From contig JAEINP010000021.1 of assembly GCA_016342355.1 (NCBI GenBank), forward strand, positions 1 to 64,000: 64,000 nt of DNA, read 5' to 3'. The stretch is from Desulfatibacillum sp. (GTDB lineage: Bacteria > Desulfobacterota > Desulfobacteria > Desulfobacterales > Desulfatibacillaceae). This document shows, one piece after another, positions 4,886 through 9,823 of this stretch; position 1 is the first letter of the stretch; each line of letters begins with the position of its first letter. The position numbers were made by a program, and so were the translations under genes. The notes beneath the pieces are model-generated. The model saw only the letters and a program-made list of their open reading frames with translations, ran no database searches and was not told where the DNA came from.

Positions 4886-5809
4886 TCAATCCTTAAAAAG
4901 TTCCGTGCTCAAATAGCGTTCTCCGGTGCTGGGAAGAATGGCTACTATGGTTTTTCCTTTGTTTTCAGGCTTTTTAGCCACTTCCATGGCGGCCCACACC
5001 GCAGCGCCCGAAGAAATGCCGCACAGGATTCCTTCTTTGGCTGCTAATTCACGGGCTGTGAAAAAAGCCTGCTCGTTAGTAACCGTCACCACCTCGTCGA
5101 TGATGGAGCGCATGAGAACTTCGGGAATAAACCCCGCTCCGATTCCCTGGATCTTGTGGGGACCTTTTTGGCCTCCGGACAAAACCGGAGAGTCGGCGGG
5201 CTCCACGGCGACAGACCAGAAGGAAGGTTTGCGCTCCTTCAACAACTGGCTGATCCCCGTGATAGTGCCGCCCGTGCCCACGCCAGCCACCAGGATGTCT
5301 GCTTTGCCGTCCGTATCCCGCCATATTTCCTCGGCGGTTGTTTTCCGGTGGATGGCCGGATTGGCCGGATTGGCGAACTGGTTGGGCATAAAGGCGTTTT
5401 TGGATGCGTTGACAATTTCCCGGGCTTTTTCAATGGCTCCTGCCATGCCCGCACTGCCGGGGGTGAGGACCAGCTCCGCTCCCAGGTGCTTGAGGAGTTT
5501 GCGCCGTTCCACGCTCATGGAGTCAGGCATGGTCAGGCAGAGCTTATATCCCTTGGCCGCGCAGATAAACGCCAGGGCAATGCCTGTGTTGCCGCTGGTG
5601 GGCTCCACAATCAGGGTGTCCCGGGTGATCTGGCCGCTATCTTCGCCCGCCTGGATCATAGCTGCGCCGATGCGGTCCTTGACGCTCCCCAGGGGATTGA
5701 AAAATTCCAGCTTGGCCAGGATTGTCGCATCCAGTCCCCGGGTGATTGTATTGAGCCTGACCAGGGGCGTCCCGCCAATGGTGCTTCCTATGTCCCCATG
5801 TGTGGGCAT
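4886..5809 (-). CDS. cysK: Cysteine synthase A (O-acetylserine sulfhydrylase)
   Basis: 307 residues, the usual length. The PLP-binding lysine lies in NPLGSVKDR, the substrate loop reads [10 protein letters not shown], the phosphate-binding glycine loop is [10 protein letters not shown], and the C-terminal GISSGAAV block is present. It makes cysteine from O-acetylserine and sulfide, so it uses the sulfide that a sulfate reducer produces in excess. The ATG at 5809 has GGGAGA eight bases upstream; a TTG five codons earlier lies inside that ribosome binding site and is rejected. It lies 22 bases after cysE, which supplies its substrate. Confidence 0.95.
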
Positions 5810-5831: not shown

Positions 5832-6779
5832 TTAACGGTACGTGAGCGTGGGCGGCTCCATGATTACCCGAGTGCCCGGAGGTACGGACTGGGTGAGCCA
5901 CACATTGCCGCCAATTACCGAACCCTTGCCGATGACCGTGTCGCCGCCCAAAATGGTTGCGCCGGAATAAATGATCACGTCGTCCTCAATGGTCGGGTGG
6001 CGTTTTTTATTCCGCAATGCTTCCCCGGCGTTTTTGGGCAGGGACAAGGCCCCCAACGTTACTCCCTGGTAAATGCGGACGTTCTCGCCGATGGTCGTGG
6101 TTTCTCCGATAACCACCCCTGTGCCGTGGTCTATGACAAAGCGTCCGCCGATGGTCGCCCCGGGATGAATGTCTATCCCGGTGAGGCCGTGGGCGTATTC
6201 GGTCATGGTCCTGGGCATGAGGGGGACGCCCATTTCGTGCAGCTTGTGGGCGATGCGGTTCACAAAAATGGCGTACAGGCCCGGATAGCTGAAAATGATC
6301 TCGTCGTGGCTTTTGGCTGCCGGATCGCCGTCATAAGCAGCCTGGACGTCCGCAGCCATCACATCCCGGATTTCGGGCAGGTAATCCAGCAGGGCCATGG
6401 CTGCTTCAAAACCCCGTTCTCCGCAATCGCTGCATTCCTGGCTATAGCGCATGCAGTCGTGGCGGATGCTGTTGGATATCTGCTGGGAAAGCAGTTCAAA
6501 GAGCATGGTCACTGTACGGCCCAGGACAAAGCTCAGGTTGACAGGGTCCAGTTTTTCCTTGCTGAAATATCCGGGAAAAACCACCTCCCGCAGTTTGTCT
6601 ATGATCCCGACCACCGATTCGGTGGAGGGTATGGGATCGTAATCCACATGGGAGATGCAGGAGTCCTGCCTGCAACTGTCCAGTATCCTGTCCACCACGC
6701 CCGGGAGTTTTTTCCGGTATTGGGAGGTCAGTTCCTCGCCGATTCTGCATGTATGCTGATCTTTTTGGTCCACATCCAT
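5832..6779 (-). CDS. cysE: Serine O-acetyltransferase (cysE/EpsC type)
   Basis: 315 residues with a long N-terminal helical region and a C-terminal left-handed beta-helix of hexapeptide repeats. Hallmarks: [29 protein letters not shown] and [11 protein letters not shown]. The enzyme acetylates serine from acetyl-CoA to give O-acetylserine. The extra ~100 N-terminal residues and the lysine-rich loop ([12 protein letters not shown]) match the EpsC/plant-like form rather than the shorter E. coli enzyme. GAGGT precedes the ATG. It is 13 bases behind nifS and 22 bases ahead of cysK, so the pathway enzymes are co-transcribed. Confidence 0.93.
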
Positions 6780-6792
6780 AATGACACCTCGA

Positions 6793-7956
6793 TTAACGGG
6801 GCCTGTCCGCCCAGAACGGGGACATATCCCTCAGCCTTGCAATGAGGGGAGGCATTTTTTCCACCACAAAGTCGATTTCCGCCTGGGTGTTGTAAATGCT
6901 CAGGGAAAACCGGATGGACCCGTGGGCCGCCGTAAAGGGAACCCCCATGGCCCGAAGCACATGGGAAGGCTCCAGGGAGCCCGACGTACAGGCCGAGCCT
7001 GAGGAAGCGCAAATGCCCAGTTCGTTCATCATCAACAGGATGGCCTCGCCTTCCACATACTCAAAGCTGATATTGGTGGTGTTGGGCAGGCGGTTTTCCG
7101 GGTTGCCGTTGACCATGGAATTGGGGATTTGCAGCAAGCCCTTTTCCAGCCGGTCTCTTAAAGCAGCCACCTGGAGCACCTCCTTGGCCATGTTCTTGCC
7201 AGCCAGTTCAGCCGCCTTGCCCAGGCCGATGATGGAAGCCACATTCTCGGTGCCGCCCCGGCGGCCTTTTTCCTGATGTCCCCCGATGAGGAAGGGGGAG
7301 AACTTGGTGCCCTTGCGGATATACAGGACCCCCACGCCCTTGGGCGCATGCAGCTTGTGGCCGGAAATGGACAGCATGTCCACGGTCGAGGCGGCCATGT
7401 CGATGGGTATTTTGCCCACGGCCTGCACCGCATCGGTATGGAAAACGATTCCTCTTTTCTTGACCTGGGCCGCGATTTCCTCCACCGGAAAAATGGTTCC
7501 GGTTTCGTTATTGGCCCACATGACGCTCACGATGGCGGTTTCGTCGTCCAGGCTTTTGTACAGGGTGTCCAGGTCCAGGTTGCCCTGGCGGTCCACCGGC
7601 ACAAAGGTGGCCCGGTATCCCTGGGCGACAAGTTTTTCCACCAGACTTTTAATGGCCGGGTGCTCCACCTTGGTGGTGACAATATGTTTTTTTTCAGGGC
7701 TGGCGGCCAGGGCCGCTTTGATTGCCGTGCTATCGCTTTCGGTGCCGCAACTGGTGAAAAGGATTTCACTGGGGTCAGCCCCGACCAACGCGGCCACCGA
7801 CGCCCTGGCCTGCCGAATATTTTCCGCCACCTGCCCCCCAAAGGAGTGCATGCTGGAGGGGTTTCCGTACAGGTCGGAAAAATACGGCATCATGGCTTCC
7901 ACCACTTCGGGGGCGACCCGGGTGGTGGCGTTGTTATCCAGGTAAATGGTTTCCAT
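6793..7956 (-). CDS. nifS: Cysteine desulfurase NifS
   Basis: 387 residues. A PLP-dependent fold starts METIYLDNNATT; the Schiff-base lysine lies in SISGHKLHAPKG and the catalytic persulfide cysteine in SSGSACTSGSLEPSHVLRAM, the short-loop NifS/IscS class. It removes sulfur from cysteine and hands it to NifU. The ATG at 7956 uses GGAGG embedded in the last codons of nifU; a TTG two codons upstream would overlap that site. The gene pair lacks nitrogenase genes nearby, so this is a housekeeping NIF system, as known from epsilon- and deltaproteobacteria. Confidence 0.95.
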   Translation of the reverse strand: METIYLDNNATTRVAPEVVEAMMPYFSDLYGNPSSMHSFGGQVAENIRQARASVAALVGADPSEILFTSCGTESDSTAIKAALAASPEKKHIVTTKVEHPAIKSLVEKLVAQGYRATFVPVDRQGNLDLDTLYKSLDDETAIVSVMWANNETGTIFPVEEIAAQVKKRGIVFHTDAVQAVGKIPIDMAASTVDMLSISGHKLHAPKGVGVLYIRKGTKFSPFLIGGHQEKGRRGGTENVASIIGLGKAAELAGKNMAKEVLQVAALRDRLEKGLLQIPNSMVNGNPENRLPNTTNISFEYVEGEAILLMMNELGICASSGSACTSGSLEPSHVLRAMGVPFTAAHGSIRFSLSIYNTQAEIDFVVEKMPPLIARLRDMSPFWADRPR

Positions 7957-7958
7957 AA

Positions 7959-8774
7959 TCAAACCTCCTCCACCACAAGGGTTGGCGTCACCAGTTCACG
8001 CAGCTTGGCCTCCACGTAATCTTTCAGGGTGACCTGGGAAACCTGGCAGGTGGAACACCGGCCCTGGAGCCTGACAAAGACCTTGTCCCCGTCCACGTCC
8101 ACCAGTTCGATGTCGCCGCCGTCCTGCTTCAGGGTGGGGCGGATCTCCCGCTCCAGGGTTTCCTGGATAAGCTGGATCTTTTTGATGTTGGTCATGAACG
8201 TGGGCTTGGGCTTGACGTCTCCCTTGTAGGAGTCCAGGATTTCCTGGATTTTGCCATGGCATTTTTCACAGCCTCCGCCCGCCTTCACGTAATTGGTCAC
8301 ATCCTCGATGCTGGAAAGGTTGTGCTCCTTCACTACGCGATGGATTTCCTTGTCCGTGACGCCAAAGCACTCACAAACAATTTCCCCGTCCACCTTTTTG
8401 GCTTCCTGTCCATGGTAATGGGAAATCGCCTTTTCCAGGGCGTCCCGGCCCATGACTGAACAGTGCATTTTTTCCTTGGGCAGGCCGCCCAGAGCTTGGG
8501 CGATGTCCTCGTTGCTAACCTTTGCGGCTTCCTCCAGGGACATGCCCTTGAGCATTTCCGTCAGCACGGACGAGGACGCAATGGCGCTGGCGCATCCAAA
8601 GGTCTGGAATTTGGCCTCTTCAATGGTTTTGTCCGGTCCCAGCTTGAAACTGAGCTTGAGGGCGTCCCCACACGCCAGGGAACCTACCTCGCCTATGCCG
8701 TCCGCATCTTCCACAACCCCTACGTTCCGGGGGTTGAGGAAATGATCCTTCACTTTGCCCGTGTATTCCCACAT
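7959..8774 (-). CDS. nifU: Modular Fe-S scaffold NifU
   Basis: 271 residues in three parts: an IscU-like scaffold (residues 1-125; cysteines in SLACGDA, FGCASA and MHCSVMG), a central [2Fe-2S] BFD-like domain (CECFGV and CEKCHGK, about 130-175), and a C-terminal Nfu domain with CSTC near residue 240. This full-length layout is the NifU of NIF systems. It builds transient clusters with sulfur from NifS. The ATG at 8774 follows AGGAGG; a GTG two codons upstream is too close to that site. It is the first gene of the run and is preceded by the palindromic control region. Confidence 0.95.
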   Translation of the reverse strand: MWEYTGKVKDHFLNPRNVGVVEDADGIGEVGSLACGDALKLSFKLGPDKTIEEAKFQTFGCASAIASSSVLTEMLKGMSLEEAAKVSNEDIAQALGGLPKEKMHCSVMGRDALEKAISHYHGQEAKKVDGEIVCECFGVTDKEIHRVVKEHNLSSIEDVTNYVKAGGGCEKCHGKIQEILDSYKGDVKPKPTFMTNIKKIQLIQETLEREIRPTLKQDGGDIELVDVDGDKVFVRLQGRCSTCQVSQVTLKDYVEAKLRELVTPTLVVEEV

Positions 8775-8843
8775 AAACACCTCCTGCCCCTATTAAAAGA
8801 GGCTCCCAAGCATATATATTAAATTTTTTTGAACTATTTTTAT

Positions 8844-8901
8844 ATTGTAGCACTTGATTTTCCTCTTGGATAGTACCACATTGTGGTACAATATGTACCA
8901 C
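8844..8901. promoter_or_regulatory. Divergent promoter region with a 17-bp palindromic operator
   Basis: GTACCACATTGTGGTAC at 8873-8889 is a perfect palindrome around one central T. A further half site GTACCAC follows at 8895-8901, 22 bases from the first copy. On the minus strand TACAAT (8849-8844) is a plausible -10 for nifU with a poor -35 (TATCCA, 17-base spacer). The palindrome would then be centred near -44, as for an activator site. On the plus strand TACAAT at 8887-8892 could be the -10 of the HTH gene, so a protein bound to the palindrome would block it. The motif is seen; the promoter assignments are inference. Confidence 0.55.
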
Positions 8902-8975
8902 GAAAGGATAGTTTGTCAAGGGAAGACAAATTGAAGGAATGTTAAATACACACAGCAAAATTGGGCATTGGCGAC

Positions 8976-9389
8976 ATGGACAGCGGACGATTTACCATAG
9001 TGAGAAAGGCGCTGAAAAAAACCCAGGCCGGGTTGGCGGATTTGCTGGGGGTATCCGTGAAGGCTGTCCGAAGCTATGAACAGGGGTGGCGAAAGATTCC
9101 CGCCCATGTGGAACGGCAGATGTATTTTCTCATTTCCCGCAAAGAAAAAAAGGGAAAGCCGCCCCCTTGCTGGGTCATTAACAGGTGTCCATCCAAAGTA
9201 AAAAAAAATTGTCCGGCCTGGGAGTACAGGGCCGGGGACATGTGCTGGCTTATCCATGGGACCCAGTGCCGGGCGCATTTGCTCCATGACGCCAAGGACA
9301 TTATGAGCCGATGCAGAAAATGCCGGGTCATTGAGGAATTGACCCCGGACGACAAGGGTGACGCAGGGGAAGGAGATCAGGATAAATGA
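8976..9389 (+). CDS. XRE-type HTH protein with seven-cysteine C-terminal region; candidate Fe-S or cysteine-responsive regulator
   Basis: 137 residues. Residues ~5-50 form an XRE-like helix-turn-helix (TQAGLADLLGVSVKAVRSYE). The C-terminal half carries seven cysteines: PPCW, NRCP, KNCPAW, DMCW, TQCR and RCRKC, a pattern that suggests a metal or Fe-S site. It is divergent from nifU and separated from it by the palindrome at 8873-8889. Its end overlaps the MOSC gene by ATGA. The ATG at 8976 lacks a good Shine-Dalgarno sequence; a TTG at 8961 is the alternative. I do not recognise a named regulator (it is not IscR, CymR or SufR); the role is inferred from layout. Confidence 0.7.
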   Translation: MDSGRFTIVRKALKKTQAGLADLLGVSVKAVRSYEQGWRKIPAHVERQMYFLISRKEKKGKPPPCWVINRCPSKVKKNCPAWEYRAGDMCWLIHGTQCRAHLLHDAKDIMSRCRKCRVIEELTPDDKGDAGEGDQDK

Positions 9390-9823
9390 AAATTGTATCC
9401 ATAGCCTTGAGCAGGAAAAAGGGAACCCGGAAGACGTGCGTGGAGCAAGCCATGTTGATCAAGGAACACGGGCTGGAAAACGACGCCCATGCCGGTCCCT
9501 GGCACAGACAGGTGAGTTTTTTGTCTTCCGAGGCTATTGATTGGGCCAAGGAAAAAGGCCTGGACGTGAATTTTGGCGATTTCGCCGAAAACATCGCCAC
9601 CACAGGGATTGACTGGAAAAGCATGCCCGTGGGGTCCCGGTTTCGGCTGGGGGCCGAGGCGTTGGTGGAAATCACCCAGATCGGCAAGGAATGCCACAAG
9701 AAATGCGCCATTTACTATCAGGCCGGAGATTGCATCATGCCCCGGGAAGGGGTGTTCGCCAGGGTCCTGGAAGGCGGAACCATTGTTGTGGGGGATGGTA
9801 TTGAGGAAGCAGGCCGGGGATAA
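9386..9823 (+). CDS. MOSC domain protein
   Basis: 145 residues, a stand-alone MOSC domain. Features include DAHAGPWHRQVSFL near the N-terminus, NFGDFAENI in the middle, and the conserved cysteine block GKECHKKCAIY...GDCIMPREGVFARV. MOSC domains are the sulfur-handling part of molybdenum-cofactor sulfurases and related carriers, and are thought to accept sulfur from cysteine desulfurases. The start codon overlaps the stop of the HTH gene (ATGA). Co-transcription opposite nifU/nifS suggests a connection with NifS-derived sulfur, which is inference. In other genomes similar small MOSC proteins sit with molybdopterin genes; none are seen here. Confidence 0.85.
   Translation: MKIVSIALSRKKGTRKTCVEQAMLIKEHGLENDAHAGPWHRQVSFLSSEAIDWAKEKGLDVNFGDFAENIATTGIDWKSMPVGSRFRLGAEALVEITQIGKECHKKCAIYYQAGDCIMPREGVFARVLEGGTIVVGDGIEEAGRG

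Follow-up and report, generated by a model that had tools for sequence, protein, structure and literature searches.

A small HTH protein with a two-CW cysteine domain and a shared operator: a candidate regulator of sulfur assimilation in Desulfobacterota

The locus described here raised the question of what is controlled by a small protein that joins a DNA-binding half to a row of cysteines, and what the cysteines respond to. The window, i.e., the whole stretch of DNA that was analysed, comprises 64,000 nucleotides of a Desulfatibacillum sp. contig (JAEINP010000021.1, assembly GCA_016342355.1), from a genome of 5.26 Mb (G000). The gene lies on the forward strand at 8976..9389, starts with ATG and encodes 137 amino acids. 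An in-frame TTG is present upstream at 8961, but the alignment of homologues, which are mostly 124-138 aa long with the longest at 149, supports the ATG at 8976. The original prediction had described an XRE-like HTH followed by seven spaced cysteines, and had set the protein apart from IscR, CymR and NsrR. All seven cysteines were present in the open reading frame, C65 in PPCW, C71 in NRCP, C79 in KNCPAW, C90 in DMCW, C98 in TQCR, and C113 together with C116 in SRCRKC. The HTH was recovered as Pfam HTH_3 at residues 9-42, with 24.2 bits against a cut-off of 23. Six Pfam families were matched at E<=1, and the Rrf2 winged-HTH family of IscR, NsrR and CymR was not among them, in agreement with the proposed separation. 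Judged on its sequence, the protein is probably a DNA-binding regulator outside Rrf2 with strictly conserved cysteines.

The XRE/HTH_3 domain occupies residues 1-57 (8976 to 9146, forward strand). Residues S27, K29, E35, Q36, W38 and R39 were invariant in the 82 aligned sequences, while the window protein carries R32 at a position occupied by H in 70 of the 82. AlphaFold2 modelled the HTH confidently (block pLDDT >=86 over residues 1-50), and the cysteine domain of the window protein poorly (block pLDDT about 50-70). For a typical homologue (L105) the mean pLDDT was 82.7, and its cysteine domain was predicted as short helices only. The best matches of the predicted HTH in fold comparison were XRE proteins, e.g., SO3848, Aca2/Aca10 and HigA2. 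Against 2ox6, 7ezy and 7xi5 the rmsd was 0.8-1.1 over 54-57 residues and Z was 7.0-7.6, values common among small helical domains. Proteins of the Aca2/Aca10/SO3848 type have this HTH fold in common with the regulator, and they are not known to carry the two-CW cysteine domain. Searches of PDB folds with full-length models gave matches anchored in the HTH, and none by Foldseek at E<=0.001. Likewise, notable matches from a sequence search of solved structures were confined to the HTH region; the best was 8vd6 (7.5e-08), with no single stretch passing on its own. Two named families were tried and rejected. The MqsA-type antitoxin model reached 17.6 bits against 30, over the HTH part only (TIGR03830, 21 against 61.8), and the VC1465/XafT family model NF040522 reached 26.7 bits against a cut-off of 70.

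The cysteine half matched NF045718, the NCBIfam "two-CW" model, at residues 64-121 (9165..9338, forward strand) with 36.6 bits against a cut-off of 35. The region is thus already catalogued, but solely as a named domain; the model gives no function, ligand or operator. It was matched by 82 of 82 aligned sequences at E<=0.01. Variation of the cysteines among orthologues had been named beforehand as evidence against the prediction; it did not occur, and all seven were invariant in the 82 sequences. The 80 loci behind this set were collected with peptide seed patterns that include C90-W91 and C98, so in it the invariance is unbiased for the remaining five cysteines only. In an alignment built on similarity alone (the window protein and 25 homologues), C65, C71, C79, C90, C113 and C116 were found in 26/26 rows and C98 in 25/26. 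Five loci (L016, L019, L028, L034, L042) were excluded from alignment A1 for stop codons within the matched region; L094, with no stop within its contig, was included in A2 and not in A3, and L105 was placed first in A3. Other invariant residues in the 82 rows were W66, P80, A81, G87, W91, G95 and T96, and E83 was nearly so (81/82). Two Cys-Pro pairs stood out, C71-P72 in 80 rows and C79-P80 in all 82; such pairs recall Fe-S ligands. No highly conserved histidine was found in the two-CW domain among the 82 rows. An eighth cysteine occupied one alignment column in 31 of the 82, and the window protein has A106 where 80 rows have tryptophan. Outside the HTH, the cysteine domain was the most conserved part of the protein.

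The two-CW domain is not restricted to this architecture. At E<=0.001, 47 of the 118 genomes sampled from the phylum had a match, and the 14 control genomes had none. The domain also occurs as stand-alone proteins in open frames of about 70-150 aa and joined to cNMP-binding and protein kinase domains. Of 26 further two-CW loci that were tried, 21 matched a seven-cysteine pattern, and these included stand-alone proteins and kinases. Inspection by eye of the genes around 11 stand-alone loci gave no evident clue to a ligand. In G000 itself there are two more such proteins. A second copy of the regulator lies on contig C9 (55% identity over residues 6-121), with a cupin-like gene, assigned by eye, directly behind it (L003:8329-8679). 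In the third (G000:C39:31272-31508; L047:4252-5886) the two-CW domain is N-terminal to cyclic-nucleotide-binding and Ser/Thr protein kinase domains, and a gene resembling a PP2C-type phosphatase by eye follows. Further, HTH-two-CW forms the N-terminus of proteins of 750-760 aa with PAS repeats and an apparent histidine kinase (by eye). One is a 761-aa protein on the reverse strand at L229:464-2749, with a histidine-kinase-like C-terminus, and open frames of 752-759 aa were found at the match in G168, G200, G254 and G278. Sensor kinases do not usually carry a DNA-binding domain. One two-CW open frame resembled, by eye, a chemoreceptor.

Divergent from the regulator gene in the window are nifU, encoding the Fe-S scaffold (7959..8774, reverse strand, ATG at 8774; TIGR02000, 342 bits with a query lacking the first two residues), and the cysteine desulfurase gene nifS (6793..7962, reverse; TIGR03402, 634 bits). 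These are followed on the same strand by a cysE-like serine O-acetyltransferase gene (5832..6779; TIGR01172 with 159 bits, below the cut-off of 210.65, and Pfam Hexapep) and by cysK for cysteine synthase A (4886..5809; TIGR01139, 465 bits). In the direction of the regulator, a MOSC-domain gene (9386..9823, forward) overlaps the regulator stop by four bases and is probably its operon partner. Over 80 loci from named genomes, neighbouring genes were clustered by similarity and the labels were assigned by us from sequence and from the window proteins; metX, metY, nifU, cysE and a cysK-like protein of relatives, one each, were checked with NCBIfam. The clusters comprised cysK (33), cysE (24), metX (24), metY/Z (20), metW (20), nifU (10), nifS (10) and MOSC (8). 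These counts are lower bounds, as genes were called crudely as longest ORFs and the labels miss genes such as nifS and cysE of L048. The order regulator-metY-metX-metW-cysE-cysK recurred in many loci. At least one of cysK, cysE, metX, metY, metW, nifU and nifS was found in 51 of the 80 loci, and in 47 such a gene and the regulator belonged to one run of codirectional or divergent genes. The 29 loci without a labelled sulfur gene were many of them on short contigs.

The divergent intergenic region (8775-8975) contains a palindrome, GTACCAC-ATT-GTGGTAC, at 8873..8889, which we designate the operator. When the nifU/regulator intergenic regions of the window, L048 and L072 were aligned, the block CCACATTGTGGTA was identical in all three, as was TGTCAA, the complement of the -35 hexamer TTGACA of nifU. 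The putative nifU promoter, TTGACA-18-CATATT (8890..8919, reverse strand), was picked by a promoter scan and agrees with the TGTCAA conservation; the operator follows immediately downstream and covers the probable start of transcription. On the other strand, a putative regulator -35, TTGGAT (8866..8871), is separated by the operator, which fills the spacer, from a weak putative -10, CAATAT (8889-8894). The scan did not select this promoter; L048 has TTGAAA, 17 bases and TATACT at the same place. An extra half-site, GTACCAC at 8895..8901, forms GTGGTAC-N5-GTACCAC with 8883-8889, which results in overlapping palindromes of opposite polarity; it is absent in Desulfatibacillum alkenivorans, the species of L048. 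No riboswitch was found in the window among Rfam models at gathering score.

The same dyad was common upstream of the homologues, which are spread over sulfate reducers and related bacteria. After removal of 4 near-identical regions out of 81, the exact dyad ACCAC-N3-GTGGT was found in 22 of 77 upstream regions, while no dyad exceeded a count of 4 in 50 dinucleotide-shuffled sets. Allowing up to two mismatches at 12 positions, TACCAC-N3-GTGGTA was present in 51 of the 77 against 0.38 per shuffled set, and 26 had no such site. In 40 of the 51, a TTGACA-like -35 (<=1 mismatch) closely preceded the site, compared with 4 of 47 control windows; with such a hexamer a few bases before it, the site sits inside promoters. 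In some loci the best site starts as far as 205 bp ahead of the start codon. The 753 kb around regulators contained 53 sites (<=1 mismatch), 40 of them no more than 320 bp upstream of the regulator and another 6 in front of metY or nifU.

The site was considerably commoner in genomes that have the gene. Among 96 relatives, the exact site was found in 22 of 39 genomes with the gene and in 2 of 57 without it (P=3e-9). The gene was here scored as present by a strong homologue (>100 bits), and ten genomes in which the hits were no more than weak and partial (E 1e-7 to 1e-3) were scored as gene-less. A reversed control pattern showed a weak excess in the gene-bearing genomes of this sample (12/39 against 7/57, P=0.04). 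In a sample of 297 genomes of the phylum, the corresponding figures were 22/51 against 10/246 (P=3e-12), with G306 scored as gene-bearing though it matches profile positions 1-77 only, and 20/46 against 10/240 after genomes of the first sample were taken out; the reversed control gave 9/51 against 29/246 (P=0.25). The exact site was absent from 17 of the 39 gene-bearing relatives. Two gene-less genomes, G064 and G080, had four exact sites, all inside called ORFs, two of them short (216 and 381 nt), and one in G064 (L221) resembles a true promoter site. Sites inside spurious-looking ORFs also occur in gene-bearing genomes, three in G000, so the location within an ORF says little.

The 22 gene-bearing relatives carried 42 exact sites. 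By our reading of the neighbours, sixteen adjoin the regulator or a gene of the cys, met or nif type; three others are beside larE/ycaO/tauE or an mnmA-like/ycaO pair. On computational grounds, an operator common to the regulator gene and to sulfur operons supports placing the protein among regulators of sulfur assimilation, with 23 of the 42 exact sites elsewhere, adjoining no recognised sulfur gene by our reading of the neighbours. Genes at the latter sites, some identified by eye, were cytidylate-kinase-like, ResB, RnfC-like, EamA-like and FG-GAP-like; these sites may reflect a wider regulon, or some may be chance occurrences. Sites in trans, off the contig of the regulator, were found before metY-metX (L197, L205), before nifU-nifS (L210) and before a cysK-like gene (L200); the L206 site precedes a run of cysE, cysK and the regulator gene. 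In L211 the trans site (L211:3078) precedes cysE-metY and faces a type III sulfide:quinone reductase gene, which suggests that sulfide oxidation may belong to the regulon. The best family model for this reductase was NF049943, the selenoprotein subtype. In G029 an exact operator lies upstream of a gene that is cupin-like by eye (L217:345).

Four exact sites were found in G000: the operator in the window, a tandem pair at 75994 and 76016, and one on contig C73. The tandem operators (G000:C65:75994 and 76016; L044:11994, 12016) are on the contig of the window, outside it, and upstream of a cytidylate-kinase-like (PF13189) gene. The site on C73 has a larE operon on one side and a TauE/SafE permease gene on the other. 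Both outside locations recur in D. alkenivorans (L198, L199), L199 being the cytidylate-kinase-like place. A further site with one mismatch lies 86 bp before the second regulator copy on C9; as sites with up to one mismatch are at control level in this genome (14 against 22 for the reversed control, no excess), it is the position that singles this site out. The nameable targets taken together share one theme, the transfer of sulfur from sulfide or cysteine to cysteine and homocysteine, to Fe-S clusters and to thiolated products.

Starting from the computed gene, domains, cysteine conservation, operator, co-occurrence and neighbourhood, we consider it fairly probable that the protein is a homodimeric, autoregulated XRE repressor of sulfur assimilation and Fe-S biogenesis, with a two-CW domain that likely holds Fe-S or another metal. 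Each HTH of the dimer would bind DNA directly and read one half of TACCAC-N3-GTGGTA, a palindrome of 15-17 bp. In its own promoter the site lies in the spacer between -35 and -10 or overlaps these elements; bound there, the protein would block RNA polymerase and so limit the regulator itself, and it would also repress from sites before cysE-cysK, metY-metX-metW and nifU-nifS. A site that overlaps the promoter core usually means repression. The seven cysteines would most likely carry one or more oxygen-labile Fe-S clusters, the occupancy of which would report the sufficiency of cysteine and Fe-S supply; the loaded protein would repress, and the empty protein would release. We favour an Fe-S cluster because all cysteines are fixed and no histidine is, because of the Cys-Pro pairs, because Fe-S assembly genes are among the targets, and because sulfide is rarely scarce in these organisms. 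The two Cys-Pro pairs and the lack of a highly conserved histidine appear to fit Fe-S better than a Cys/His zinc site.

The same regulator and regulon could be combined with another chemistry, in which the two-CW domain holds a structural zinc and one or several free thiols sense sulfide, persulfide or redox state. Seven cysteines would allow one Cys4 zinc site and three thiols, E83 could serve as a ligand, and the regulon concerns sulfide fixation (cysK, metY), with a type III sulfide:quinone reductase at one site; moreover, MqsA-type HTH proteins combine an HTH with zinc-binding cysteines. We nevertheless regard this as rather unlikely, as all seven cysteines are invariant and no subset resembles a spare sensor, and as sulfate reducers are bathed in their own sulfide, which would make its scarcity an odd signal. 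The direction of control may also be other than repression. XRE proteins can activate, and the distance of up to 205 bp from the start codon in some loci would suit an activator or a dual role, but the site following directly on a -35-like hexamer in 40 of 51 cases, and thus overlapping the promoter core, makes this improbable.

It is also conceivable that the two-CW domain is only structural or serves protein interaction. The actual signal would then be either a metabolite bound elsewhere (cysteine, O-acetylserine, SAM) or a partner protein; one candidate partner is the MOSC protein, whose gene follows the regulator in the window and whose cluster occurs in 8 of 80 loci. A precedent for a metabolite input is CysR of Corynebacterium glutamicum, which, according to the parts of the paper available to us, needs O-acetylserine or O-acetylhomoserine for DNA binding (PMC2580772). 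We give this explanation a small chance, since a further ligand pocket would hardly fit into proteins that are mostly 124-138 aa long, and since it is the cysteine domain that is most conserved outside the HTH. An HTH protein that belongs to a prophage or a toxin-antitoxin pair, unconnected with sulfur metabolism, would agree with the matches to RstR, HipB-like, MqsA and NadS models, and with Aca2, Aca10 and HigA2 being among the nearest solved HTH folds. These matches of the window protein are, however, all below the family cut-offs and confined to the HTH side, and with gene neighbourhood and operator distribution pointing to sulfur genes we find such an origin extremely improbable.

Compared with known systems, the Fe-S-responsive repressor that we prefer resembles IscR and other Rrf2 proteins (NsrR, CymR) in being small, cysteine-bearing and autoregulated, with Fe-S and cysteine genes as targets and a likely similar logic. 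Rrf2 regulators, unlike the present protein, have the Rrf2 fold and clustered cysteines. We rate the protein as a putative HTH repressor with a cysteine sensor domain outside Rrf2; relative to NF045718, whose domain forms its C-terminal half, it adds the HTH. MetJ, MetR, SahR and the SAM riboswitches have other folds and ligands than the HTH-two-CW regulator. They control methionine genes in proteobacteria according to a survey with Desulfovibrionales and Desulfuromonadales as the delta groups of its table, the main text of which does not contain the term XRE (PMC4239095). CysR, like the regulator proposed here, is dedicated to sulfur assimilation and has an inverted-repeat site; it differs in belonging to the ROK family, in its dependence on O-acetylserine or O-acetylhomoserine, and it activates as well as represses, as far as the available parts of that study go (PMC2580772). 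The predicted LysX box of Desulfovibrio has half-sites that look alike, GTGGTAC/GTACCAC; in the accessible text of its source the half-sites are in opposite order with another spacing (GTGGTACTNNNNAGTACCAC), and a COG1378 regulator and lysine genes are named, so we rejected it as the same system (PMC545781).

Literature searches on two-CW or NF045718 gave no relevant paper, and those on met/cys regulation in sulfate reducers gave, by title and abstract, none on an HTH-two-CW regulator. A function-linked operator and regulon for the two-CW domain was thus not found in the literature searched. Sulfate reducers produce sulfide in bulk, yet few reports came to our notice on the control of its incorporation into cysteine, methionine and Fe-S clusters. 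Two surveys of delta-proteobacteria name other regulators there, in the parts accessible to us (PMC545781, PMC4239095). The analysis offers a candidate regulator with its operator and a regulon that can be tested, and for the first time it places a conserved cysteine domain, so far no more than a name, in a function-linked setting. With somewhat less than even confidence, we suggest that the protein may represent a new class of Fe-S-sensing transcription factors, in which an XRE repressor with a two-CW cluster domain would tune the synthesis of cysteine, homocysteine and Fe-S clusters in many Desulfobacterota. One circuit would then take on IscR-, CymR- and MetJ-type roles that are kept apart elsewhere, and the two-CW domain may also supply kinases and chemoreceptor-like proteins with a redox or Fe-S signal.
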